The position numbers and the translations under genes were made by a program. A model generated the notes under the pieces. The model ran no database searches. It saw only the letters and a list, made by a program, of their open reading frames with translations, and was not told where the DNA came from. Source: Azorhizobium caulinodans ORS 571 (GTDB lineage Bacteria; Pseudomonadota; Alphaproteobacteria; Rhizobiales; Xanthobacteraceae). From it: a stretch of 64,000 bases of DNA. The stretch is taken from NCBI RefSeq assembly GCF_000010525.1, contig NC_009937.1, forward strand, positions 2,671,501-2,735,500, written 5' to 3'. Positions 1-12,505 of the stretch are shown here, piece after piece (position 1 is the stretch's first letter; the number at the start of each line of letters is the position of its first letter).

Positions 1-601
1 CGCCCAGCATCCCGCTCCGCTCCGGGTCCAGCCGGTCGCAGATGTCGAGCGCCTGACCCATGGTGTTCACGCATGCACGGTCAGCGGCATACATGGGATG
101 GAGCGGCTCGATGGCGAGAGGCATGTGGGCGCTGCGGGCGTACTCCAGTAGCGTGCCGATGCCGTCCTCCACCATGGCACGGGCGGCCCCGATGTCCTTC
201 GAAGGCGCCGAGCCCGGCCGGGCATATTGCGGCAGGCCACCCACCACGAGAACGAGGCAGGACGCGCCCAGAGCCTCCGCCTCATCCACCGCGCGGCGGT
301 TGTCGTCGCGCACCTCCGGCAGGCGCGCGGGATCGGCCGGGAACATGCCGCCCCGGCAATAGCCCGAGAGCGCGAGGCCGGTCGCCTTCACCGCCTCAAC
401 GGCGCGGGGCAGGCCGATATGGGCCACCTGATCCCGCCAGGGCGAGATGGCGCGGATCTGCGCCCGCGCGCACGCCTCGATGATGGTCGCAAGATCGCCC
501 TGCCTGCGCACCGTCGCGGTGTTGATGGAGAGCAGGCGGTGATCCGCCGAGAAGTCCCTCAGGGCGGGCTTGAGGGCGCTGGGTGCGACACGGTCCTGCA
601 T
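1..601 (-). CDS. Sugar phosphate isomerase/epimerase family TIM-barrel protein (partial, C-terminus beyond window)
   Basis: The first 200 residues are visible; the gene runs off the window start. They read as a xylose-isomerase-like TIM barrel: an early strand with SINTATVR, then ISPWRDQVAHIG, LSGYCRGGMFP, LVLVVGGLPQY and a metal-site-like IEPLHPMYAADR near residue 180. Proteins of this class isomerise, epimerise or cleave keto-sugars and related polyols with a divalent metal. The ATG lies one base after the stop of the DUF993 gene, so the two are certainly co-transcribed and probably translationally coupled. It is the last visible gene of the ABC/catabolic operon starting near 7.4 kb. The fold is clear; the substrate is unknown. 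Confidence 0.8.
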   Translation of the reverse strand, partial: MQDRVAPSALKPALRDFSADHRLLSINTATVRRQGDLATIIEACARAQIRAISPWRDQVAHIGLPRAVEAVKATGLALSGYCRGGMFPADPARLPEVRDDNRRAVDEAEALGASCLVLVVGGLPQYARPGSAPSKDIGAARAMVEDGIGTLLEYARSAHMPLAIEPLHPMYAADRACVNTMGQALDICDRLDPERSGMLG

Positions 602-602
602 C

Positions 603-1796
603 TCAGGCCTCCACGCCACGCACGGCGAGCACGGCACGCATCCGCTGCACCGCCAGATCCGGATCGGTCAGCAGCCCGGCCCGATCCGCAAGACGGAACA
701 GTTCGGCCAGATGAAGGGTCGAGCGGGCGCTCTCCTGACCGCCGACCATCGTGAAATGGTCCTGATGGCCATTGAGATAGGCCATGAACACCACTCCCGT
801 CTTGTAGAAGCGCGTGGGCGCCCGGAAGATATGGCGCGACAGAGGCACGGTGGGCGCCAGGATGTCGTGGAAGCCCGCCTCGTCACCCGCCGCCAGCGCG
901 GTGAGCGCGGCCGAAGCGGCCGGGGCGATGGCATCGAAAATACCCAGCAAGGCGTGCGAATAGCCCTGCGCGTCTCCGGCGACCAGCTCCGCATAGTTGA
1001 AGTCATCGCCCGTATACATGCGCACGGCCGGGTCCAGCCGGCGGCGCATGGCGATCTCCTTGTCCTTGTCGAGGAGCGAAATCTTCACGCCATCGACCTT
1101 GGCCGCATGGGCATTGATGATGGCGACCGCCGTATCCATGGCTGCGTCGAGATCGCGCGTGCCCCAGTAGCCGGCGAGCGCGGGATCGAACATGTCGCCC
1201 AGCCAGTGGATGATGACCGGCTCGCGCACCTGGCTCAGGATGCGGCCATAGACGGTCTCGTAATCCGCCGCCGATGTGCCGATGCGGGCAAGCGCGCGGG
1301 AGGCCATCAGGATGATGCGCCCGCCCACCTTCTCCACCGCCGCCACCTGCTCTTCATAGGCGCGGATCACGTCGTCGAGCGACCTTGCGGCCTCAGGTGC
1401 GAGGTGGTCCGTGCCCGCTCCGGAAAAGACCAGCGCCTCCGGCCCGTGCGCCTTCGCAGCCTCCACCGAGCGGCGGATCAGGTCCAGCGAGGTCGGCCAG
1501 TCGAGACCCATGCCGCGCTGGGCCGTATCCATGGCTTCCGCAACGCCGAGGCCGAGGTCCCATAGGCGCTGCCGATAGGCGATGGTGTGGTCCCAGTCGA
1601 TGGCGGCTTCGAGCCACGGATCGCTGGCCGCCAGCGGGTCCGCCACCACATGGGCGGCGGAAAAGGCGATGCGGTTCATCGGCCCCGACGCACGCGCGGG
1701 AAAATCGCGGGGGGCCGAGAGCTTGAACGTCTCAAGCCCGCCCCCGGCGAGCGGCAGGCGAAGGGACAGGGCGGTGGCGTTCGCGCGTTCGTTCAT
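603..1796 (-). CDS. DUF993 family (dihydrodipicolinate synthase-like) protein
   Basis: This 397-residue protein matches the DUF993 family, usually annotated as a dihydrodipicolinate-synthase-like TIM barrel. Recognisable stretches include LIRRSVEAAKAHG, EQVAAVEKVGGRIILMASRALAR, VIIHWLGDMFDPALAGYWG, DGVKISLLDKDKE with the KIS lysine where a Schiff-base lysine would lie in aldolases, and RMYTGDDFNY. I infer an aldolase or lyase acting on an acid-sugar intermediate; no member's reaction is known to me. It lies between the Gfo/Idh/MocA oxidoreductase and the isomerase gene. The 207-base gap upstream carries palindromes, but the order and strand still fit one operon. Confidence 0.8.
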   Translation of the reverse strand: MNERANATALSLRLPLAGGGLETFKLSAPRDFPARASGPMNRIAFSAAHVVADPLAASDPWLEAAIDWDHTIAYRQRLWDLGLGVAEAMDTAQRGMGLDWPTSLDLIRRSVEAAKAHGPEALVFSGAGTDHLAPEAARSLDDVIRAYEEQVAAVEKVGGRIILMASRALARIGTSAADYETVYGRILSQVREPVIIHWLGDMFDPALAGYWGTRDLDAAMDTAVAIINAHAAKVDGVKISLLDKDKEIAMRRRLDPAVRMYTGDDFNYAELVAGDAQGYSHALLGIFDAIAPAASAALTALAAGDEAGFHDILAPTVPLSRHIFRAPTRFYKTGVVFMAYLNGHQDHFTMVGGQESARSTLHLAELFRLADRAGLLTDPDLAVQRMRAVLAVRGVEA

Positions 1797-1888
1797 CGTT
1801 TCTGATCCTTCTTGGTCGCGGCTCCGCCGCCGCTGAAACCCATGTCCCCGTGGTCCGGTCCGAGCGCCCCCGTGCGCTGCGTCCCTAA

Positions 1889-1919
1889 GGTCATGGCCAG
1901 GCGTGTCCCGGCCATGACC
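1889..1919. repeat. Perfect 10-bp inverted repeat between oxidoreductase and DUF993 genes
   Basis: GGTCATGGCC at 1889-1898 faces GGCCATGACC at 1910-1919 across an 11-base loop. It sits in the 207-base gap between two minus-strand operon genes and has no T-run on either side. It is therefore more likely an mRNA-processing or repeat-type hairpin than a strong terminator. Confidence 0.55.
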
Positions 1920-1950
1920 GTGGTTCGGCTAGGTGCGCGGATGGTGGGAT

Positions 1951-1979
1951 GTCATGCCCGGACCAGCTCCGGACACGAC
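1951..1979. repeat. REP-like imperfect palindrome (GTCATGCCCGG type)
   Basis: GTCATGCCCGGA at 1951-1962 pairs with TCCGGACACGAC at 1968-1979, 10 of 12 positions. The leading GTCATGCCCGG recurs, read on the minus strand, in the palindrome at 17942-17964. This suggests a dispersed extragenic palindromic family of the kind common in Hyphomicrobiales. Confidence 0.45.
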
Positions 1980-2003
1980 GGCCGTGCCTGAAGGTGCAGC
2001 CCC

Positions 2004-3188
2004 TCACTCGGCGGCTTGCAGGACGGCCCGTTCGGACGCTTCCAGCGTCGGCACGTCGATCCAGCGGCGCTCCTTCCAGCTCTGGAGCGCGCATTCCACG
2101 AGTTGCACGCCCTTGGCGCCTTCGCGGAGCGTGAAGCGATAGGGCGCATCCTCCACCACGTGGCGGATGAACATCTCCCACTGCACCTTGAAGCCGTTGT
2201 CGAACACCGCCGTGTCGGGCACCGGCTGCCAGTGGTTGTAGAAGTCCATGGTCTGCTTCTGGTCCGGGTTCCACACCGGGCGCGGGGTGCCGACGCGGGA
2301 CTGGAAGACACAGTCCGAAAGCCCCGCCACCGCCGAACCCAGCGTGCCGTCCACCTGGAACGTCACCAGGTCGTCGCGATAGACGCGGGTGCACCAGGAC
2401 ATGTTGATGTGGGCGATCACGCCGTCCTGAAGCTCGAAGGTGGCATAAGCGGCATCATCCGCCGTCGCCTCATAGGGCTGGCCGCGCTCGTCCACGCGGG
2501 AGGGGATGTGGGTCGCGCCGAGACAGGACACCGACTTCACTTCGCCGAAGAGATTGTCCAGCACGTAGCGCCAGTGGCAGACCATATCGAGGATCATGCC
2601 GCCGCCCTCCTGCGAACGGTAATTCCAGGAGGGGCGCTGCGCCGGCTGGCCCCAGTCTCCCTCAAACACCCAGTAACCGAACTCCCCGCGCACCGAGATC
2701 ATGCGGCCGAAGAAGCCGGAATCCCGCAGCAGCTTGAGCTTCTGAAGGCCGGGCAGGAAGAGCTTGTCCTGCACCACGCCGTTCTTCACGCCCTTCTCCT
2801 CCGCGAGGCGGCAGATGCGGACGGCTTCCGGCAGATTGGTGGCGATGGGCTTCTCGCAATAGACATGCTTGCCGGCGCGGATGGCCTTTTCCAGCAGGAT
2901 GGGACGCATCTGGGTGGTGGCGGCGTCGAAGAAGATTTCGTTGCCGGGATCGGCCAGGGCGGCGTCGAGGTCCGTGCCCCAGCGCTCGATGCCATACTGC
3001 TTCGCGAGCCCTTCCACCTTGTCCGCATTGCGGCCGATGAGGATGGGATCGAGCTGCACTTTCGTGCCGTCGGAAAGGGGCACGCCCCCCTGCGCGCGGA
3101 TGGCCACCACGGAGCGGATGAGGTGCTGGTTCAGCCCCATTCGCCCGGTGATGCCGTTCATGATGAGGCCGAGGCGCTTCTGGGTCAT
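2004..3188 (-). CDS. Gfo/Idh/MocA family oxidoreductase
   Basis: A 394-residue NAD(P)-dependent oxidoreductase. The N-terminus MTQKRLGLIMNGITGRMG opens a Rossmann fold, and the family signature CEKPIATN lies near residue 113. A C-terminal alpha/beta domain follows, with GGGMILDMVCHWRYVLDNLFG carrying the usual active-site Asp/His region. Enzymes of this family oxidise or reduce a secondary hydroxyl or keto group of sugars, inositols and similar polyols. The ATG overlaps the stop of the preceding enolase-superfamily gene by four bases (ATGA), so translation is coupled. It is probably the dehydrogenase step of the operon; which carbon and which substrate cannot be told. Confidence 0.9.
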   Translation of the reverse strand: MTQKRLGLIMNGITGRMGLNQHLIRSVVAIRAQGGVPLSDGTKVQLDPILIGRNADKVEGLAKQYGIERWGTDLDAALADPGNEIFFDAATTQMRPILLEKAIRAGKHVYCEKPIATNLPEAVRICRLAEEKGVKNGVVQDKLFLPGLQKLKLLRDSGFFGRMISVRGEFGYWVFEGDWGQPAQRPSWNYRSQEGGGMILDMVCHWRYVLDNLFGEVKSVSCLGATHIPSRVDERGQPYEATADDAAYATFELQDGVIAHINMSWCTRVYRDDLVTFQVDGTLGSAVAGLSDCVFQSRVGTPRPVWNPDQKQTMDFYNHWQPVPDTAVFDNGFKVQWEMFIRHVVEDAPYRFTLREGAKGVQLVECALQSWKERRWIDVPTLEASERAVLQAAE

Positions 3189-4576
3189 GCCGGTATCTCC
3201 TGATGAAGTCTGGTTTCGGGAAGCGTGACGGGCGCAAGGCTCGCCCAGTCGGGTTCGGCCCGCCCGGCAAAGCCGGGGGCGGAGAGCAGGGAGGCGGTGG
3301 CCAATACGCCGCGCGAGACATCGAGCGCGGCGCCCGCATCCGTGAGGCGATAGAGATCCGGGTGCGCCGCCGCGAAGGCGCCGGCCTCTTCCTCGGGCGC
3401 GGGACCAAAGCCCGCGACATAATGGTGGCCGTTGCGCTCGCCGTGGGTGAGGCCAAGCGTGGCCACGAGCGCAAGGTCCTGCTGGAGGCCGAGCCCCGGC
3501 TGGCAGGTGAGGTCCTCGGCGGTCAGGAAAGTGCCCTCCCCCGCCTGCACCCGCACCGCATTGAGGATGGACTTGTAGAGCCCCTTGCAGGCTTTGGAGG
3601 ATACGCCGCGATAGCCGAGAGCGATGGCTCGAGGGAAGGCATCGAGGCCGCCATCGGCCTCGTCGATGATGACGGGAATACCATCAAGCGCCGGCGGCAG
3701 CGGACGCGTGAAGGTCTCCGTCCGGTCAAACGGCTGCTCGATATAGAGCAGCCGCGCCTTCAGAGGCCTGAGAGCCGGCGTGTCGAGCCCGGCCGCGAGC
3801 TGGCAGAGACGCTCGGGGTCGTATTGCTCGTTCGCATCCAGCGTCGCGCGGAAATCCGGCGCGAGATGGGTGAGTAAGGCCGTGATGGCGGCGAGCCGGT
3901 CGAGGTCGGCGGCAAGATCGCCACCGATCTTGATCTTGAAGAAGCGCAGCCGAGCGGCTGCGATCTCGGCAGAAAGGCCGTGCGGCCCCTCCAGCGGATC
4001 GAGCAAACCGATCGTGTGCCGCACAGCCACGGCCGGGACAGGCGTGAGAGACGCAAGGAGCGCAGGGATCTGCTCAGGAGAGAGGTCACGAGCGTTCCGG
4101 GCATCAAGCCCCATCACATTGCGGGAAAGCCCCTCCGGAAACGTCAGGGATAGGGCGCGCAACAGGGCATCCACGACCGCCTTGTCCAGCAAGGCGGGAC
4201 CGAAATGGGCCGCGAGCGCGGGGATGCCCCGCCCTTCGGCCCAGCCGAGTTGCATGGCCGCCGCATCCGCCGAAAGGCCGTAGGCCGTGGACCATGGGGC
4301 ATCCGCATAGAGGGCCGCGGCGTGCAGCAGGACCCGGCGCAGGTCGTCGACCGTCTGTTCGGGCGACTTGTGCGGCGCCTTGTCGAACCAGCGCGGCATC
4401 ATCATCTCGGCCGCCTGTCCCACGGCACGACCCGCGCCTTCTACCTCCAGTTCGATCCGCACGAACGCCTGCGGCGCCGCCTCGACCACGGACGGGCCGA
4501 AGCGGAAGGGACGCACGAACGGCATCATCCGTTCGCGGACCTCGACCGACAGGATGCGGAGGCGGGGCGCAGTCAT
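3185..4576 (-). CDS. Enolase superfamily (mandelate racemase/muconate lactonizing-like) enzyme
   Basis: 463 residues from the ATG chosen here (MTAPRLRIL); an in-frame start 30 bases upstream would run into the ATPase stop region and is less likely. The barrel shows the superfamily pattern: KIKIGG (K214, K216), DANE (D247), IEQP (E280), DEAD (D305) and SSKACKG (K328). These are the general bases and metal ligands that abstract the proton alpha to a carboxylate. Most relatives are acid-sugar dehydratases or racemases. The gene begins 7 bases after the ABC ATPase stop and overlaps the oxidoreductase by four. It probably dehydrates or epimerises the imported carboxylated compound. Confidence 0.88.
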   Translation of the reverse strand: MTAPRLRILSVEVRERMMPFVRPFRFGPSVVEAAPQAFVRIELEVEGAGRAVGQAAEMMMPRWFDKAPHKSPEQTVDDLRRVLLHAAALYADAPWSTAYGLSADAAAMQLGWAEGRGIPALAAHFGPALLDKAVVDALLRALSLTFPEGLSRNVMGLDARNARDLSPEQIPALLASLTPVPAVAVRHTIGLLDPLEGPHGLSAEIAAARLRFFKIKIGGDLAADLDRLAAITALLTHLAPDFRATLDANEQYDPERLCQLAAGLDTPALRPLKARLLYIEQPFDRTETFTRPLPPALDGIPVIIDEADGGLDAFPRAIALGYRGVSSKACKGLYKSILNAVRVQAGEGTFLTAEDLTCQPGLGLQQDLALVATLGLTHGERNGHHYVAGFGPAPEEEAGAFAAAHPDLYRLTDAGAALDVSRGVLATASLLSAPGFAGRAEPDWASLAPVTLPETRLHQEIPA

Positions 4577-4583
4577 GGCGGGC

Positions 4584-5405
4584 TCAGTCGATGTGCCCGC
4601 GGGCATAGAAGTGGCCGCGCACCTGCTGGGCCAGTTCGGCGAAAGCGGGTGTTCCCATCAGTTCCAGAGCCCGCGGGCGGGGAAGCGGCACGTCGTAGAT
4701 GGCGGCGATGGAGCCGGGACGGTCCGTCATCACCACCACCCGATCGCCGAGGAAGATGGCTTCCGGAATGGAGTGCGTGATCAGCAGGATGGTCTTGCGG
4801 GTCTCGAAATGGATGCGCTGGAGTTCCAGGTTCATCCGCTCCCGAGTCATGGCATCGAGCGCGCCGAAGGGTTCGTCCATCAGGACGATCTTGGGATCGT
4901 GGACAAGGGCGCGGCAGATGGCGGTGCGCTGCTGCATCCCGCCGGACAGCTGCCACGGATACTTGTTCTCGAAGTCCGAAAGCCCAGCGGTCGCCAGAAG
5001 CTGGCGGGCTCGCGCAAGGTGCGAGGCCTTGTCCAGCCCCCGCACCTCCACGGGCATCATGACGTTGCGCAGAACCGTGCGCCAGGCAAGCAGGACCGGG
5101 CTCTGGAATACGATGCCCACGTCATCCGGGGGTTCGGTGACGCGCGTACCGTCGATGACGATCTCACCGTCGCTCGCCGGGATGAGGCCGGCCACCAGCT
5201 TCAGCAAGGTGGACTTGCCGCATCCCGAGGGGCCGACCACGGAGATGAACTCGCCCTCGCGGATGTCGAGAGTGATGGGCTTCAGCGAGGGCATCTCGCC
5301 GTCGCGCGTCCGGTAGGTCTTGGTCAGGCCGCGGATCTCGATGAGCCGACGGCGCACGTCGGTCGTCTCGTCGCGCGACACGACCCGCAGGGTATTGGCG
5401 GCCAT
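4584..5405 (-). CDS. ABC transporter ATP-binding protein (SsuB/TauB/NrtD class)
   Basis: 273 residues from the ATG at 5405, preferred because GGAG lies six bases before it; the ATG four codons upstream has no such site. Walker A GPSGCGKST is at 58-66, the signature LSGGMQQR at 153-160, and Walker B IVLMDEP at 173-179. It energises the importer formed with the permease at 6555-7364 and the binding protein at 5466-6482, the nitrate/sulfonate/taurine-type ABC class. The order permease, binding protein, ATPase, then four enzymes suggests uptake feeding directly into catabolism. Confidence 0.93.
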   Translation of the reverse strand: MAANTLRVVSRDETTDVRRRLIEIRGLTKTYRTRDGEMPSLKPITLDIREGEFISVVGPSGCGKSTLLKLVAGLIPASDGEIVIDGTRVTEPPDDVGIVFQSPVLLAWRTVLRNVMMPVEVRGLDKASHLARARQLLATAGLSDFENKYPWQLSGGMQQRTAICRALVHDPKIVLMDEPFGALDAMTRERMNLELQRIHFETRKTILLITHSIPEAIFLGDRVVVMTDRPGSIAAIYDVPLPRPRALELMGTPAFAELAQQVRGHFYARGHID

Positions 5406-5465
5406 GAGGTTCTCCATCGGAGTTCGACTGGTCCGCGCGCCGGACCACCGGCGCGCGGCGACGGG

Positions 5466-6482
5466 TCAGTTGCCGGCGGCGGGAAGATAGTCGCGCGTAT
5501 AGAAGGACTTGGTGTTGTCCTTCGCCGAGGCTTCGAGACCGCCGTATTCGATGAGGAGATCCACCGTGGAGGTCATGTCCGCATCGGTGACCTGAAACGG
5601 CGGGCGGCCTTTGGTTTCGTCTGTGTGATAAAGGGGCGTCGTCAGCGCGAAGCCCTCCAGCAGCGTCTCGCGCTTGCCCGCCTTGGGCAGGTCCGCGAGC
5701 AGCGCATCGACCGCCGCGCCGGGATCCTTCTCCGCACCGATGAAGGCAGCCGTGGTCGCCTTCATGAAGCGGCGGACAAGGTCGGGATTGGACTTCAGCA
5801 GGTCCTTGTTGGTGATGATGCCGGACGAGACCATGTGGATGCCGTAGTCGGCGAACATGATCGGACGCACGTCCTTTCCGGTGGCATCCTTCAGCTTCAT
5901 GCTCTGGTCCATGACATAGCCGAGCAACAGATCGGCGCGGCCGTTGGCGACGGCATTGAGCTTGGTTTGCGCGTCACCCGACACCACCTGGAAATCGGAG
6001 GCCCTCAGCCCCGCCTGCTTCAGGAAGAGCGGCCAGATCTGGGACATGGAGTCACCCGGCGTGGTGGCGACGATCTTGCCCTTGATGTCTTCCGGCTTGC
6101 GGATGTTCTTGTCAGAAAAGCCCATGACGGACATTGGGCTTTTCTGAAGCGCCACGCCCACGGCCACGACGGGAGCACCCTTGGCGGCGGCGCGGATCAT
6201 GGTGGGCACGTCCGCATAACCGAACTGCACGGTGCCGGCCGCCACTGCCTGGATGGTGACGGCGGACCCGCGGCCCTCTTGGATGTCGAGATCGATGCCC
6301 TCGGCAGCATAAAGGCCCTTGGCCTTGCCGTAGAAGAAGGGCGCGTGCTCGCCATAGACGTACCAGTTGAGCAGCAGCGTCACCTTGTCGGCAGCGGCCG
6401 CGGGTATTGCGGTGGCAGCGAGAAGCGAGGCACCCAGCGCGGCGCCAAGGCACCGCAGGGCGGTGCGGCGAACAACGGTCAT
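5466..6482 (-). CDS. ABC transporter substrate-binding protein (NMT1/THI5-like)
   Basis: 338 residues with a cleavable signal peptide (MTVVRRTALRC, hydrophobic core, AAA-A at about 29-31). The ATG at 6482 is preceded by GGGAGGAAATC, a strong ribosome binding site, so the longer reading frame upstream was rejected. The mature part begins with LLLNWYVYGEHAPFFYGK, typical of NMT1/SsuA-type periplasmic proteins that bind small organonitrogen, sulfonate or heterocyclic ligands. The ligand cannot be assigned. It is encoded between its permease and ATPase and probably delivers the substrate degraded by the enzymes encoded downstream. Confidence 0.9.
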   Translation of the reverse strand: MTVVRRTALRCLGAALGASLLAATAIPAAAADKVTLLLNWYVYGEHAPFFYGKAKGLYAAEGIDLDIQEGRGSAVTIQAVAAGTVQFGYADVPTMIRAAAKGAPVVAVGVALQKSPMSVMGFSDKNIRKPEDIKGKIVATTPGDSMSQIWPLFLKQAGLRASDFQVVSGDAQTKLNAVANGRADLLLGYVMDQSMKLKDATGKDVRPIMFADYGIHMVSSGIITNKDLLKSNPDLVRRFMKATTAAFIGAEKDPGAAVDALLADLPKAGKRETLLEGFALTTPLYHTDETKGRPPFQVTDADMTSTVDLLIEYGGLEASAKDNTKSFYTRDYLPAAGN

Positions 6483-6554
6483 GATTTCCTCCCGGACATT
6501 TTTCTTTGCTGGCGAACGCATCACGCACACAGGGCGCCGCCTTGCGGCGCCGGA

Positions 6555-7364
6555 TCAGGCGGTAGCGAACACGTCCTGCCGCTGGCTGGCGTGCCACGGG
6601 ACGCACAGACGCTCGATGACATCGACGACCCAGAAGAGCACCACGCCGATGAGCGCCAGCAGGATCAGCGCCGCGAACATGGTGGGGAGCTCGAAATTGC
6701 CGATGGAACGTTGGAGCACGAAGCCCAGCCCGGAATTGGCGCCGACGAACTCGCCGACCACCGCCCCCACCACCGCGAGCGTCACCGACACCTTCAGGCC
6801 GGCGAATATGGCCGGCATGGCATGGGGCAGGCTCACCATGGCAAAGGTCTGGAGCTTGGAGGCCTTCATGGCGCGAGCGAGATCCCGCATGTCGCCTTCG
6901 ACGGACTTGAAGCCCTGAACGCCGGCGACGATGACGGGAAAGACCCCGAGCAGGAAGGCGGAGATGACCTTCGGCACCATCCCGAACCCGAACCAGACCA
7001 CGAAGAGCGGCGCGATGGCGACCTTCGGGATGGATTGGGAGAAGACGAGCAGCGGATAGAGATAGCCCTCCACGGTGCGGGAGCCGGCGATCATCATGGC
7101 GAGCGGAATGCCGATCAGCGCGGACAGCGCGAAGCCGGATACCGTCGCGATGGTGGTGGGGATGGCTTCCTGGAGCAGCATGCCGCCTTCCGTCCGGAAG
7201 GCCATGAACACATCCCACGGCGCCGGAATGAGATAGGGCGGAATCTTGAACAGCCGCACGCTCACGTCCCACAGCGCGATAAGCACGACAAGAAGCGCGA
7301 CGGGCTTCACGGACGGCGAATTGAAGAAGGCGTGCGCGGACAATCCCGGGCGTCGTGACGCCAT
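6555..7364 (-). CDS. ABC transporter permease (SsuC/TauC class)
   Basis: 269 residues with about six membrane helices. The cytoplasmic EAA-type loop reads DLARAMKASKLQTFAMVSLP and contacts the ATPase. The ATG at 7364 has GGGAGGAG seven bases upstream. It is the first gene of the operon; a sigma-70-type promoter and palindromic operator candidate lie 46-90 bases upstream. Family knowledge places it in the inner membrane as the channel of a nitrate/sulfonate/taurine-type importer. Confidence 0.92.
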   Translation of the reverse strand: MASRRPGLSAHAFFNSPSVKPVALLVVLIALWDVSVRLFKIPPYLIPAPWDVFMAFRTEGGMLLQEAIPTTIATVSGFALSALIGIPLAMMIAGSRTVEGYLYPLLVFSQSIPKVAIAPLFVVWFGFGMVPKVISAFLLGVFPVIVAGVQGFKSVEGDMRDLARAMKASKLQTFAMVSLPHAMPAIFAGLKVSVTLAVVGAVVGEFVGANSGLGFVLQRSIGNFELPTMFAALILLALIGVVLFWVVDVIERLCVPWHASQRQDVFATA

Positions 7365-7409
7365 GGCGATCTCCTCCCATGTATCTGCGGGCTCTTGCGG
7401 CTCGCTAAA

Positions 7410-7427
7410 TAACTAACCGGTGAATTA
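7410..7427. promoter_or_regulatory. Candidate repressor operator centred on ACCGGT
   Basis: TAACTAACCGGTGAATTA is an imperfect palindrome (14 of 18 positions symmetric) with ACCGGT at 7416-7421. It overlaps the -10 hexamer and start site of the promoter at 7424-7453, a position typical of repressor operators. TetR- and GntR-type regulators often bind ACCGGT-centred sites; a LysR site is less likely. Confidence 0.5.
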
Positions 7428-7453
7428 CATGCAGAGGGTCGAGGCCCTGTCAA
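7424..7453 (-). promoter_or_regulatory. Sigma-70-type promoter of the ABC/catabolic operon
   Basis: On the minus strand TTGACA (7453-7448) matches the -35 consensus exactly. After 18 bases TGTAAT (7429-7424) matches the -10 consensus at five of six positions. Transcription would start near 7417, leaving about 50 bases of leader before the permease ATG. Confidence 0.6.
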
Positions 7454-7671: not shown

Positions 7672-8613
7672 CTAAGTCGCCGCCGGAAAAGGGGCATCCG
7701 GCTCCATGCGGGACCAGTCTTCCGACAGGATCCATTCGCAGAACGCCGCGACGCTCTTGAGCCGCCGATTGGAGCGCGGCAGCACGAGATAGAAGCCCGG
7801 CACATCGGCCGGGTCCATGCCCGCCATTGCATCAAGGCCGAAGGGCGCGACGAGTCGACCCGCCTTGAGGTCTTCCTGGGCATCGAGCACGGAAATGAGG
7901 CCGATCCCGAGCCCGGAGAGCGTCGCCCGGCGCATGCTGGCGGCGTCGTGGAACTGGATTTCCTTCTGCACCTCGCCCGGATCCACGCCGAGATGGCGCA
8001 ACACGCGCGGCCAGAGGTTCGTTGCCAGCACCAGATGGAGCAGCGGTGCGGTCCTGAGGTCCTGCGGACTGCGCAGGGCCGAGGCCCGCGCCGGTGAGCA
8101 GCAGATCACCTTCGGATCCTGGACCAGCAGCGTCGATTCATAATCCCGCCACTGGCCGAAGCCCCACTGAATGGCCGCATCCACCTCGTCGGCTGAAAAG
8201 TCCGGGAGCTCCACCATCGTCTTCAGCCGGATATCCGCACCGGGTAGACGATCGCGGAATCGATCGAGCCGGTCCACGAGATAGCGCGTCGCGAAATAGG
8301 GGCTGGCATTCAGGTTGATGCGGTTGCGATGGCCCACCTTGCAGATGCGCCTGACCCCCTCGCGGAACTCGTCGAAGCCACTCTGCACGTAATGGGAGAG
8401 GAGAATGGCCTCTTCAGTGGGTTCGATCGCCCGTCCCCGTCGATCGAACAGAGGCACCGCGAGGGTGTCTTCCAGAAGCTTGATCTGCTGGCCCACAGCC
8501 TGCGGGGAGACAAGCAGTTCGTCCGCGGCGCTGCGGAAACTGCCGTGACGCATGACCGCGTGGAACACCCGCAGGGCATTGAGAGGGGGCAGACGAACGG
8601 TATCGGACCTCAT
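7672..8613 (-). CDS. LysR family transcriptional regulator (GcvA-like)
   Basis: 313 residues from the ATG at 8613; longer starts upstream were rejected because LysR proteins begin just before the helix-turn-helix. That domain reads LNALRVFHAVMRHGSFRSAADELLVSPQAVGQQIKLLE at residues 10-47. The C-terminal effector-binding domain follows, with an arrangement like GcvA/AmpR-type members (SPYFATRYLVDRL, AIQWGFGQW). It lies between the hyuAB pair and the ABC/catabolic operon on the same strand. It may regulate either; LysR genes often control a neighbour, but no T-N11-A site was pinned down. Confidence 0.9.
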   Translation of the reverse strand: MRSDTVRLPPLNALRVFHAVMRHGSFRSAADELLVSPQAVGQQIKLLEDTLAVPLFDRRGRAIEPTEEAILLSHYVQSGFDEFREGVRRICKVGHRNRINLNASPYFATRYLVDRLDRFRDRLPGADIRLKTMVELPDFSADEVDAAIQWGFGQWRDYESTLLVQDPKVICCSPARASALRSPQDLRTAPLLHLVLATNLWPRVLRHLGVDPGEVQKEIQFHDAASMRRATLSGLGIGLISVLDAQEDLKAGRLVAPFGLDAMAGMDPADVPGFYLVLPRSNRRLKSVAAFCEWILSEDWSRMEPDAPFPAAT

Positions 8614-8792
8614 CGCCAGCCCTTGTCCCCCGGATCGATGCACGGCAGCGGGCGCAAGGCTAGGCCCGCGTGCCCGCCATCGCAAGGCATCCACGGGAAG
8701 GTGCCCCCGCCTCCGTGCAGGGGCGCGTCTCAGGCCTCCCGGTGAGGCGAGAGCCGACCGGACAGAACGCCTTAAGCCGGGCGGGCTCCCGT

Positions 8793-10412
8793 TCAGTGCT
8801 CGCTTTCCGTCACATACCCCTTGATGGCATCGTCATGCCGCGCCGCATCCGAACGTCCCTCGGGCGGCCCGTAGCCGCCGCCACCCGGCAGGGTGAGAAT
8901 GAGCCGGCGGCCCGCTGGCACATGCTGCCAGCCCTTGCCGCGCATCTTCGTGCCGTCGTCAAGGCGGACGCCGCCAGGCGCGCCCTGCCCTCCCCCGGCG
9001 CGGCCTCGGGCGGGATAGGTGATGCGATCGAACATGGCCGAGAAATCGAACTCATGCCCCTCGGCGGCGGCGATCTCGATGATCTGGCCAAGGCCGCCCC
9101 GATAGGTGCCGTCGCCGCCGGAATCGGGCCGCAGTTCCTTGCGCCAGATCACCACCGGGCCGGTCTGTTCCGTGGCCTCGATGGGCATGGTGTGGACGCC
9201 CGAGGGGAAGGCCGTGGCCGAGAGCCCGTCGAGCCCGGGGCGCGCGCCCATGCCCCCCGAGTTGAACATCAGCACTTCCGCGCGGCGGCCGGCCCCGCCC
9301 GCCACCGGCCGCAGCGAGAGATGGATGTTCCACAGCGAGGCCGCGCCTTCCGCGAGCACCTGCCCCGGCAGGGCATCCGCGACGGCGCCGAGCACCAGAT
9401 CCGGCACGAGGTGGCCGAGCACATGGCGCAAGCTCACGGGCGCCGGACGCTCCGCATTGAGGATGTTCACCGGCGAGGACACGGTGAAGAAGCCGAGCGA
9501 GGCCCAGTTGTTCGGAATGTCCGGGGCCACCACGCACTTCAGCGCATAGGAGGCATAGGCCTTGGTGTAGCTGATGGGCACGTTGATGCCCCATCGGCTC
9601 ACCGGCGCGCTGCCGGTGAAGTCCACATGCACGCTCTCGTCCCGAATGGTGACGCAAGCGGCAAGCGGGATCGCCTCATCATAGCCATCAGTGACCATGG
9701 TGTTGGACCAAGAGCCCTTGGGCAGGGCGCGGATGCGTTCGGCCATGGCGCTGCTGGTGCGCGTGAAGATGAAATCCGCCAGCGGATCGAGGCTGGCGAG
9801 GCCCACTTCGCGCATCATCTCCACGAGGCGACGATGGCCCACGTCGTTACACGCTGCGAGCGAATAGAAATCGCCGACCACCTGATTGGGCTCACGCACA
9901 TTCTGGCGCAGGATGCGGACGAGGTCCCGGTTCACCGTGCCGCGCTCGGCGAACTTCATGATCGGGATCTGGATGCCTTCCTCATAGACGGACTTGCCGT
10001 CCGCCCCGAAACCACGCCCGCCAACATCCACCACATGGGCGGTGCAGGCGAAGAAGCCGACCAGCTCCCCGTCGAGGAAGGATGGGGACACCATGGTGAT
10101 GTCGTGCAGATGCCCGGTGCCCTTCCACGGGTCGTTGGTGACATAGGTGTCGCCCTCGTACATCTCGGCGCGGGGGATCTCCGCCATGAAGTTCCCCACC
10201 GCCTCGGCCATGGTGTTCACATGGCCCGGTGTTCCGGTGACCGCCTGCGCCAGCATGCGGCCCATCGGGTCGAACACTCCGGCGGACAGGTCGCCCGCCT
10301 CGCGCACCGAGGTCGAGAAGGCCGTGCGCAGCAGGGTCATCGCCTGCTCTTCCACCACCGAGATCAGGCGATTCCACATCACCTGCATACGGATGTCGTC
10401 GATTTCGCTCAT
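8793..10412 (-). CDS. hyuB: Hydantoinase B/oxoprolinase family protein (HyuB subunit)
   Basis: A 539-residue HyuB subunit. The N-terminus has VREAGDLSAGVFDPMGRMLAQ, then GTPGHVNTMAEAV and YEGDTYVTNDPWKGTGHLHD, all family hallmarks; the glycine-rich end GGGYGPPEGR is typical too. It pairs with HyuA to hydrolyse a cyclic amide (hydantoin, N-methylhydantoin or 5-oxoproline) with ATP. Acetophenone-carboxylase-like chemistry is an alternative. The ATG overlaps the hyuA stop by one base (TGATG), so the subunits are translationally coupled. The substrate is not identifiable here. Confidence 0.9.
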   Translation of the reverse strand: MSEIDDIRMQVMWNRLISVVEEQAMTLLRTAFSTSVREAGDLSAGVFDPMGRMLAQAVTGTPGHVNTMAEAVGNFMAEIPRAEMYEGDTYVTNDPWKGTGHLHDITMVSPSFLDGELVGFFACTAHVVDVGGRGFGADGKSVYEEGIQIPIMKFAERGTVNRDLVRILRQNVREPNQVVGDFYSLAACNDVGHRRLVEMMREVGLASLDPLADFIFTRTSSAMAERIRALPKGSWSNTMVTDGYDEAIPLAACVTIRDESVHVDFTGSAPVSRWGINVPISYTKAYASYALKCVVAPDIPNNWASLGFFTVSSPVNILNAERPAPVSLRHVLGHLVPDLVLGAVADALPGQVLAEGAASLWNIHLSLRPVAGGAGRRAEVLMFNSGGMGARPGLDGLSATAFPSGVHTMPIEATEQTGPVVIWRKELRPDSGGDGTYRGGLGQIIEIAAAEGHEFDFSAMFDRITYPARGRAGGGQGAPGGVRLDDGTKMRGKGWQHVPAGRRLILTLPGGGGYGPPEGRSDAARHDDAIKGYVTESEH

Positions 10413-12505
10413 CAGTGGCGGCCCTTGCGGACGAGGAGGATGGAGCCGTCGCTCTGCAGCACGGCATCGAAGAGAGAGGTGATGACCGTGGCGGTCTCCC
10501 GCTCCACGATCACTGCGGGGCCACTCACGCGGTCCCCGGCCGAGAGCGCCCCGCGCTCGACGATGGCGCTGTCGCGCAGCGCGCCGCTCGCCGGATCGAA
10601 CACGGCGCGGGTGGCGCCGGCGATCGCTGCCGGGCGGCCTCGGGTATCCAGGGCGACGGGGTCCGGTGCGGGCCGTTCGTCCTGCATCTTCACGGAGATG
10701 GTCACGATCTCGATTTCGAGACCATCCAGCCCGTCGATGGCGCGGCCGAAGAAGCGCGCATAATTGGCGCGGAAGGCCTCACGGATGAGATCGGCATCAG
10801 CCGCCGTGAAGGCGCGATCGGGGAGCGCGACCGGGATTTCCCAGCCCTGTCCGGCATAGCGCATGAAAGCGGTGATTTCGCAGATCAGCGGCGCGTCGGT
10901 TCCGGCACGCACGAACTGCTCGGCGCTCGCCTTCAGGTCGGCCACCAGCCCGTTCACCAGCGCCGGATCGAACTGTGACAGGCGCACGAGACGCGAACCC
11001 ACCGCCTCATAGCCGAAGGGCGCCTTGAGGAAGCCGATGGCCGATCCCACGCCGGCGCCGGACGGCACGAGGCACAGATCGAGACCGAGTTTCTCGCACA
11101 GCCGCGCCGCATGGAGCGGCGCGGCGCCGCCGAAGGCGATCATCACGTTGTCGGAGATGTTCTTGCCATTCTCCACCGCATGCACGCGGGCGGCATTGGC
11201 CATGTTCTCGTCCACCACCTCGCAGATGCCGAAGGCGGCGGACAGGGGGGCGAGGCCGAGGCGGTCTCCCACTTCGGCGCGGATCGCAGCCTCCGCCTTC
11301 TCGCGCGAGAGGCGGATGGCGCCGCCGGCGAAATTGTCAGGGTCGATCTTGGCGAGGACGAGATCCGCGTCCGTAATGGCGGGCCGCGTGCCACCGCGCT
11401 GGTAGCAGGCCGGACCCGGCTCGGAGGCCGCGCTCTCGGGACCGGTCTGGATGCGGCCCATCGAATCCACCCAGGCGATGGAGCCGCCACCGGCGCCGAT
11501 CTCGATCATCTCGATGACCGGGATGGAGATGGGCATGCCCGAGCCCTTACTGAAGCGATAGGTGCGTGCCACCTCGAAGGTTCGGGCCGTGCGGGGCTGA
11601 TAGTCCTCGATGAGGCAGATCTTCGCCGTGGTGCCGCCCATGTCGTAGGAGGCGGCCTTCCCGATGCTGAAGCGCCGGGCGATGTCCGCCGCGAAGATGG
11701 CGCCGCCCGCCGGCCCGGATTCCACCAGCCGCACAGGAAATTCCGCCGCCGTCTCCACGGAGACGAGACCACCGCCGGAATGGATCATGAAGATGGGACA
11801 GGTGGCGCCGGCCTCCTTCAGTCGCACCTGGAAGCGGCCGAGATAATCGGCCATCTGCGGGCGCACATAGGCATTGGCGCATACCGTGTTGAAGCGCTCG
11901 AACTCGCGCATCTGCGGCGAGACTTCCGAGGAAAGGGAGATGGGCGCGGAAATCCTGCGCGCGAGAATCTCCTTGGCCCGCTTCTCATGGGCCGGATTGG
12001 CATAGGCATGGATGAAGCCGATGGCCACGGCGCCGAAACCCGCGCCCGCCAGTTGCTCCGCCAGCGCCTCCAGCGCCGCTTCGTCGAGCGGCAGGAGTTC
12101 GCGCCCGTCGGCACCGATGCGGCCCTTCACCGTAAAGCGGTGCTCGCGCGGCACCAGCGGGGTGGGCAGCCGCAGGTTAAGGTCATATTGCTCGAAGCGG
12201 TTCTCGGTCCGCATTTCGATCACGTCACGGAAACCCTCGGTGGTGACGAAGGCCGTCCGCGCACCCCGCCGCTCGATGAGCGCATTGGTGGCGAGCGTCG
12301 TGCCATGAATGACGAGATCGATTTCCGCCACGCCGATTCCCGCTTCCTTGGTCAGGATCGCGATGCCGTCGAGGATCGCCTGTTCGGGGGCGGTGTAACT
12401 GGTGAGCACCTTGGTGGAATGAAGCCGCCCACGCACATCGAGCACGATGTCGGTGAACGTGCCGCCGATGTCGGCACCGAGGCGGATCTGCCGTGAGGAG
12501 GTCAT
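10412..12505 (-). CDS. hyuA: Hydantoinase A/oxoprolinase family protein (HyuA subunit)
   Basis: 697 residues. The actin-like ATPase start is RLGADIGGTFTDIVLD, with VIHGTTLATNALIERRG near residue 70, ESGPAGGAIFAADIA in the middle and SYDMGGTTAKICLIED later. These are the nucleotide-binding and linker motifs of HyuA/5-oxoprolinase alpha regions. AAAGGAAAACGC before the ATG provides a ribosome binding site. It is the first gene of the hyuAB unit. Together the two subunits carry out ATP-dependent ring opening in the cytoplasm. No transporter gene for a hydantoin is adjacent, although the NMT1-type importer downstream on the same strand could serve. Confidence 0.92.
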   Translation of the reverse strand: MTSSRQIRLGADIGGTFTDIVLDVRGRLHSTKVLTSYTAPEQAILDGIAILTKEAGIGVAEIDLVIHGTTLATNALIERRGARTAFVTTEGFRDVIEMRTENRFEQYDLNLRLPTPLVPREHRFTVKGRIGADGRELLPLDEAALEALAEQLAGAGFGAVAIGFIHAYANPAHEKRAKEILARRISAPISLSSEVSPQMREFERFNTVCANAYVRPQMADYLGRFQVRLKEAGATCPIFMIHSGGGLVSVETAAEFPVRLVESGPAGGAIFAADIARRFSIGKAASYDMGGTTAKICLIEDYQPRTARTFEVARTYRFSKGSGMPISIPVIEMIEIGAGGGSIAWVDSMGRIQTGPESAASEPGPACYQRGGTRPAITDADLVLAKIDPDNFAGGAIRLSREKAEAAIRAEVGDRLGLAPLSAAFGICEVVDENMANAARVHAVENGKNISDNVMIAFGGAAPLHAARLCEKLGLDLCLVPSGAGVGSAIGFLKAPFGYEAVGSRLVRLSQFDPALVNGLVADLKASAEQFVRAGTDAPLICEITAFMRYAGQGWEIPVALPDRAFTAADADLIREAFRANYARFFGRAIDGLDGLEIEIVTISVKMQDERPAPDPVALDTRGRPAAIAGATRAVFDPASGALRDSAIVERGALSAGDRVSGPAVIVERETATVITSLFDAVLQSDGSILLVRKGRH

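Follow-up and report, generated by a model that had tools for sequence, protein, structure and literature searches.

A conserved eight-gene operon of Azorhizobium caulinodans ORS 571 with an enolase-superfamily enzyme and a DUF993 protein, a candidate system for the import and degradation of a polyhydroxy carboxylate

Which compound might be taken up and degraded by the products of the minus-strand operon at the beginning of the window, the stretch of 64,000 nucleotides of the Azorhizobium caulinodans ORS 571 genome analysed here (NC_009937.1, positions 2,671,501 to 2,735,500)? According to Pfam and to a reading past the window edge, the operon consists of eight genes (Table 1), and the window starts inside it. 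The genes code for an ATP-binding cassette (ABC) importer with an NMT1/THI5-type binding protein, an enolase-superfamily enzyme (Eno), a Gfo/Idh/MocA dehydrogenase (Gfo), a DUF993 protein, a xylose-isomerase-like barrel (XI) and a TetR regulator. All parts except DUF993 belong to known families, and the system is a well-conserved orphan pathway of an ordinary kind, not a categorically new one. It is on balance probable that the operon is inducible and serves to import and degrade one polyhydroxy carboxylate, which may be a sugar acid, a lactone or a cyclitol acid. The initial annotation of the window had described an operon for transport and catabolism, the enzymes of which are an enolase-type protein, a dehydrogenase and aldolase-like and isomerase-like proteins; this description is borne out, with the aldolase-likeness of DUF993 weak, and Pfam confirms all its gene families and the minus strand. 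Its layout of seven genes with ATGA overlaps or short gaps had to be corrected: all genes named are present, but TetR makes eight, a clean 4-base ATGA overlap occurs only at the Eno/Gfo junction, and 207 bp (window 1797-2003) separate Gfo from DUF993. In five of the six relatives with printed coordinates this last gap measures 10-23 bp, and in the sixth the two genes overlap.

A search of the species-genome collection gave at least 580 confirmed relatives of DUF993, of which the best 80 were analysed. All eight genes are found at more than 40% identity in 70 of these 80 closest loci, on a single strand and in a single order; because the same eight genes recur in this way, their association is not due to chance. 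A neighbourhood check for DUF993 beside Eno had been proposed for the operon, and its result is that the enzymes are kept together. The complete loci belong mostly to Bradyrhizobium, a genus of crop symbionts, and further to Microvirga, Ancylobacter, Tardiphaga and one Reyranella metagenome-assembled genome (MAG). Unless a contig end cuts them short, the Bradyrhizobium loci found almost always have the complete operon. TetR is the first gene in most loci and the last in two Ancylobacter loci and in A. caulinodans. In seven of the ten incomplete loci a contig end interrupts the operon (L021, L023, L041, L061, L064, L076 and L077). In Microvirga zambiensis the ABC genes are missing at the locus (L004) with no contig end to explain it, and a Bradyrhizobium MAG (L012) shows short matches to the permease and the ATPase with no binding protein between them.

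Co-occurrence was surveyed in a sample of 199 genomes of the order, in which Eno was identified by profile (E <= 1e-40) among at most eight candidates scored per genome, so that some absences may be misses. DUF993 is present in 54 and Eno in 26 of the genomes, and all 26 Eno genomes are among the 54 with DUF993 (compared by hand; hypergeometric P about 7e-18, uncorrected for kinship). In 18 of the 26 the two genes lie within 15 kb of each other.

The single-sequence Pfam call for Eno is correct but weak, and profile and structure work was needed. Enolase-superfamily members of the muconate-lactonizing (MLE) type are characterized by a KxK motif on strand 2, three acidic metal ligands and a lysine on strand 6. 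Among 23 aligned Eno sequences the residues K224, K226, D257, N259, E290, D315, E316, K338 and K341 are invariant, which we take to be the pattern of the muconate-lactonizing-type group, with K224/K226, D257/E290/D315 and K338/K341 supplying the signature. A profile search of the PDB with Eno retrieved a dipeptide epimerase (E 1.5e-7) and muconate cycloisomerases. The AF2 model (mean pLDDT 91.7) displays the two-domain fold with a C-terminal barrel, and the 50 Foldseek matches listed all have the MR/MLE fold (best E 1e-14; TM by target 0.60-0.75). Judged by sequence and model, Eno is a muconate-lactonizing-type member of the superfamily, sharing the KxK, the three acidic ligands, the second lysine pair and the fold with dipeptide epimerase, muconate cycloisomerase and OSBS/NSAR. 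Compared with the PDB members listed, however, Eno has about 100 additional residues; its identity to the 50 listed Foldseek matches does not exceed 22%, and near the C-terminus it has a conserved HxERNGHH stretch.

Gfo shows the assignment-defining features of the Gfo/Idh/MocA dehydrogenases, E112-K113-P114 (the EKP motif), D201 and H205, in 83 of 83 sequences; its nearest PDB entry is named only 'Oxidoreductase'. Inositol 2-dehydrogenase (TIGR04380, the best NCBIfam match, 73.3 bits against a cut-off of 355) and levoglucosan dehydrogenase (NF052479, 65.2 bits against 650) were rejected as identities of Gfo. In XI the metal site E177, D216, H242 and E286, together with H219, is present in all 86 sequences compared (a shorter one was excluded), and the nearest PDB entries are 3ju2 (SMc04130), 3qc0 ('sugar isomerase') and 7vpf ('Xylose isomerase'). 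A taurine or sulfonate importer was rejected on the scores of the SsuA family (77.5 against 163.5), TauA (TIGR01729; 35.7 against 304.25) and TauC (91.5 against 342).

In the pathway that we propose, the TetR repressor would keep the permease promoter blocked as long as neither the compound nor an early product is present. The NMT1-type ABC system, by its families an importer, would bring in the polyhydroxy carboxylate. Eno, to which its conserved residues assign the proton abstraction of the enolase superfamily, would act next to the carboxylate and thereby dehydrate, epimerise or cycloisomerise the compound. Gfo, assigned to NAD(P)-dependent oxidation, would convert a hydroxyl into a ketone. 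DUF993 may form a Schiff base via Lys238 and cleave a C-C bond by a retro-aldol reaction, as its distant match to DHDPS and N-acetylneuraminate lyase (NAL) suggests, and XI, assigned to the metal-dependent isomerase-type barrels, would isomerise or epimerise a product into central metabolism. The order of the four enzyme steps and the substrate are what we infer. In favour of the pathway are the conservation of the set, the presence of DUF993 in all Eno genomes, the intact catalytic residues of Eno, Gfo and XI, and the single occurrence of the operator candidate in the genome. A carboxylate is implied by enolase-superfamily chemistry, an acid substrate is favoured by the tricarboxylate-type importers of several relatives, and the glycerate kinase found beside DUF993 in six annotated loci suggests a three-carbon product. 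The earlier guess of a carboxylated polyol or amino-sugar derivative stays a guess; its carboxylate agrees with the enolase-type chemistry, but no pointer to an amino sugar was found.

The only close solved relative of DUF993 is PDB 4dnh, titled hypothetical protein SMc04132. After 4dnh, the best fold neighbours are DHDPS and NAL, class I aldolases of PF00701 (E 1e-4 to 1e-3), a weak match obtained with a low-confidence model (mean pLDDT 56.4), probably because the alignment was too shallow. Alignment by hhalign with ten DHDPS-family proteins, nine from the A. caulinodans genome and one from Chelatococcus, gave an E value of 5.6e-5 and a probability of 66%, and placed K238, invariant in 24 DUF993 sequences, at the Schiff-base lysine. 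The DHDPS/NAL enzymes also carry a GTTGE motif and a catalytic tyrosine. DUF993 differs from them in being about 100 residues longer, in forming a separate Pfam family and in not keeping either motif: hhalign puts DTAQR in the place of GTTGE, with only the first threonine kept, and His197 in the place of the tyrosine, and both stretches are nearly or fully invariant within DUF993. Because GTTGE and the catalytic tyrosine are not kept, it is not plausible that DUF993 is a DHDPS; that it works like a Schiff-base aldolase is plausible from the sequence comparison and the model.

The absence of these two motifs and the weak link to DHDPS count against the proposed pathway, and so do several results from other genomes. 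In Xanthobacter sp. YC-JY1 (L003, 6824-11194) the locus holds only the permease, the ATPase, Eno and DUF993, all adjacent, and thus Eno and DUF993 without Gfo, XI or a binding protein. This genome contains no Gfo orthologue (best match 29% identity over 132 residues); elsewhere it has an XI relative at 42% and binding proteins at up to 53% identity, which suggests that the locus belongs to a natural deletion series or that the pathway has been rewired. Ten Eno loci (L084, L119-L123 and L139-L142) have no DUF993 in the stretch read, as a match search confirmed; four of them (L119, L120, L123 and L142) carry a DHDPS-like gene, which speaks for the pathway, and the other six show no such gene either, which speaks against it. 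In the survey of the order, Eno was not found in 28 of the 54 DUF993 genomes, and in 8 of the 26 Eno genomes Eno stands apart from DUF993 (five far off on the same contig, three on different contigs). Taken with the presence of DUF993 in every Eno genome, the former count indicates that Eno goes with DUF993 and not vice versa.

What speaks most strongly against a simple sugar-acid route is that other DUF993 genes stand in a CoA-type context. Several of them adjoin genes for a CoA-transferase and an acyl-CoA dehydrogenase, most with an enoyl-CoA hydratase, which is not sugar-acid chemistry; no Eno is annotated in these loci, which also carry an enzyme of the short-chain dehydrogenase/reductase (SDR) type and often a glycerate kinase. 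This context occurs in Proteobacteria and in a Rhodococcus and points to a further undescribed route. It is annotated in L091, L093, L094, L095, L143 and L144, and open reading frame (ORF) clustering finds it in L107, L109, L111, L112, L113, L116 and L118, with two members checked by Pfam; a CoA-transferase and mostly an enoyl-CoA hydratase are accompanied in several loci by an acyl-CoA dehydrogenase, electron transfer flavoprotein, aldo/keto reductases or a glycerate kinase. The ORF clusters were built on both strands and include antisense ORFs, and therefore annotated records, genes checked by Pfam or profile hits are the basis of the conclusions given here.

The enzymes are not tied to this importer. 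A Chelatococcus plasmid record has the enzymes with an NMT1-type ABC importer; tripartite tricarboxylate transporters (TTT) occur at the loci of Paroceanicella, Pseudoroseomonas and Nitratireductor (no Eno annotated in the Pseudoroseomonas stretch), Sinorhizobium meliloti has a CUT1 sugar importer on the opposite strand, and Erwinia and Paraburkholderia have a major facilitator superfamily (MFS) transporter beside DUF993 and XI, with Eno annotated in neither. The Eno of Rhizobium (about 42-45% identical) neighbours a peptide-type ABC importer, a gene annotated as 5-deoxy-glucuronate isomerase, a GH39 glycosidase, a 2-hydroxyacid dehydrogenase and another XI-like barrel. Relatives thus exchange the importer for TTT, CUT1, peptide-type ABC or MFS systems. 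Separate travelling of importer and enzymes had been named at the outset as grounds for giving up the operon, and half of this is found, because Eno-bearing relatives use other transporters; the enzymes themselves are kept. The dehydrogenase is also swapped among relatives: all 15 annotated DUF993 loci that were read hold a Gfo, SDR-type or shikimate-dehydrogenase-type gene in the stretch, and in Paraburkholderia (L087), with no annotated Gfo, the dehydrogenase-like partner of DUF993 carries a shikimate-dehydrogenase substrate domain. A sugar-phosphate-isomerase-type (XI) gene is annotated in 12 of the 15. DUF993 is also found on proteobacterial and actinobacterial plasmids.

Tentatively, DUF993 may be regarded as the hub of an undescribed scheme, in which a non-canonical Schiff-base lyase is combined with an oxidation step, usually with an XI-type barrel, and with interchangeable front ends, the importer and the MLE-type enolase in one branch and the CoA-transferase and acyl-CoA dehydrogenase in another; DUF993 would then process a keto intermediate shared by several substrates.

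An uncharged sugar or cyclitol that is oxidised first, as in an inositol or 3-keto-glycoside plan with other parts, is a rather doubtful alternative to the import of a carboxylate. Gfo would here yield a keto-cyclitol or 3-keto sugar, XI would eliminate or epimerise, DUF993 would open or cleave the product, and a derived acid would be the late substrate of Eno. Inositol (iol) and levoglucosan catabolism combine a Gfo dehydrogenase with a xylose-isomerase-like protein, and both are present in the operon; the best NCBIfam match of Gfo points in the same direction, as do the weak matches of XI to 3-keto-glucoside 4-epimerase and IolI, the annotated 5-deoxy-glucuronate isomerase and the GH39 glycosidase by the Rhizobium Eno, and the protein with the shikimate-dehydrogenase substrate domain at L087. 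The operon differs from these systems, however, in that Gfo stays below both NCBIfam cut-offs and that no IolD, IolB or IolC is found among its genes, and the tricarboxylate-type transporters of several relatives point to an extracellular acid.

More improbable is an oxidative pentose or hexose acid route of the type of plasmid pAO1 of Paenarthrobacter nicotinovorans, in which Gfo would oxidise an aldose, Eno would dehydrate the resulting acid and DUF993 would cleave a 2-keto-3-deoxy acid. The pAO1 run resembles the operon in having Gfo followed by DUF993 (50.5% identical) together with a sugar ABC importer, and it includes an aldehyde dehydrogenase and a glycerate kinase. In the stretch shown, however, no Eno, XI or TetR is annotated, and a GMC oxidoreductase, the aldehyde dehydrogenase and the glycerate kinase are found instead; the A. 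caulinodans binding protein, moreover, is of the NMT1 type and not a sugar binder. This DUF993/Gfo cluster is presumably the cluster of the oxidative xylose-catabolic pathway from pAO1. As far as the title in a reference list tells, such a pathway has been reported, which makes the pAO1 cluster the nearest published context of the operon. Separate pathways for Eno and for the DUF993 set, neighbours because both are common in these bacteria, would suit the 28 DUF993 genomes without Eno and the eight with Eno standing apart, but are very improbable in view of the 26 Eno genomes that all have DUF993, the 18 short distances and the 70 loci that keep the set.

Repression by TetR is proposed because the candidate operator TAATTCACCGGTTAGTTATTTA before the permease gene is conserved. 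The pattern occurs once in the A. caulinodans genome when up to two mismatches are allowed, and its backward control zero times. Close versions are found in Ancylobacter and Microvirga, and a similar sequence in Bradyrhizobium matches best, as judged by eye, when read in the reverse orientation. Of 76 upstream regions 61 score at least 9 of 13, 58 of these at 45-85 bp before the permease start; the mean is 9.04 of 13 in the 76 regions against 7.60 in shuffles, and ten reach at least 10. These scores are no independent test, because the pattern was picked by eye after the sequences had been viewed. A search for exact palindromes upstream did not recover the operator (best 9 loci, against best 26 in a control inside the permease gene), the Chelatococcus upstream region scores 7, no better than shuffles, and the operator is absent from the seven printed regions upstream of TetR (scores 7-8). 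The automatic scan reported no promoter before the permease gene because its rule demands an A at position 2.

Table 1. Genes and promoter elements of the operon in window coordinates; positions prefixed L002 are those of the record read past the window edge.
Feature	Position	Strand	Remarks
-35 TTGACA and -10 TGTAAT	7453-7448 and 7429-7424	-	hexamers by eye
Candidate TetR operator TAATTCACCGGTTAGTTATTTA	7406..7427	-	overlaps -10 TGTAAT (7429-7424); before permease gene
ABC importer permease (BPD_transp_1), first operon gene	6555..7364	-	PF00528, 111.7 bits; present in 74/80 close loci
NMT1/THI5-type periplasmic binding protein	5466..6530	-	PF09084, 156 bits; start probably 6482; Sec-type signal judged by eye
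ABC importer ATPase	4584..5417	-	PF00005, 110.3 bits
Enolase-superfamily enzyme (Eno), muconate-lactonizing-type subgroup	3185..4606	-	start probably 4576; Pfam 33.5 bits against cut-off 29.4
Gfo/Idh/MocA NAD(P)-dependent dehydrogenase (Gfo)	2004..3188	-	Pfam; PDB 3oqb, 667 bits
DUF993 protein, putative DHDPS/NAL-like barrel, candidate Schiff-base Lys238	603..1796	-	Pfam 634.6 bits against cut-off 24
Xylose-isomerase-like TIM barrel (XI)	1..601, on to window position about -301 (L002:9199)	-	AP_endonuc_2, 54.4 bits on window-cut form
TetR regulator, eighth gene, just outside window	L002:8378-9262	-	PF17938 and TetR_N

The Sinorhizobium meliloti record has TetR, Gfo, DUF993, a 'mandelate racemase' and XI in one run, which by the tags of 4dnh and 3ju2 should correspond to SMc04134 to SMc04130. 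The region SMc04130-SMc04133 resembles the operon in its DUF993 (SMc04132, 4dnh) and XI (SMc04130, 3ju2), but the importer lies on the other strand, an extra Gfo gene is present, and the names of 4dnh and 3ju2 give no function. In the excerpts of a transcriptome table SMc04132 appears as uncharacterised and SMc04133 as a putative oxidoreductase, and a computed regulatory network includes SMc04134 among its transcription factors, where the passages state no function for it. In the open-licence literature of PubMed Central neither a description of the eight-gene set or its pathway nor the family name DUF993 was found, so that the early statement that no named pathway has this set holds there, with the caveat of DUF993 beside Gfo on pAO1. 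For three proteins of the operon the PDB contains close entries to which no role is assigned (4dnh, 3oqb and 3ju2). If the substrate were identified, several protein families would receive a name together, and it might become apparent what these soil and root-nodule bacteria take from plants or soil.

Two of the Eno loci without DUF993 lie on haloarchaeal plasmids (L139 and L140; Natronococcus and Haladaptatus), with distant Eno relatives (32-34% identity) near several Gfo/Idh/MocA genes. Directly upstream of the operon and on the same strand follow a GcvA-like LysR gene (7672-8694) and a pair of hydantoinase A/B type (8793-12505), whose nearest NCBIfam models are the caprolactamase CapA/CapB, far below cut-off; all three genes were rejected as members of the operon because not one of the 80 related loci has a match to them. 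Downstream, a run at L002:1107-7849 (window about -8393 to -1651) comprises, by eye, an IclR regulator, a 3-hydroxyacyl-CoA dehydrogenase look-alike, a Leu/Ile/Val-type binding protein, an SDR, a cyclase-family protein and an alpha/beta hydrolase.

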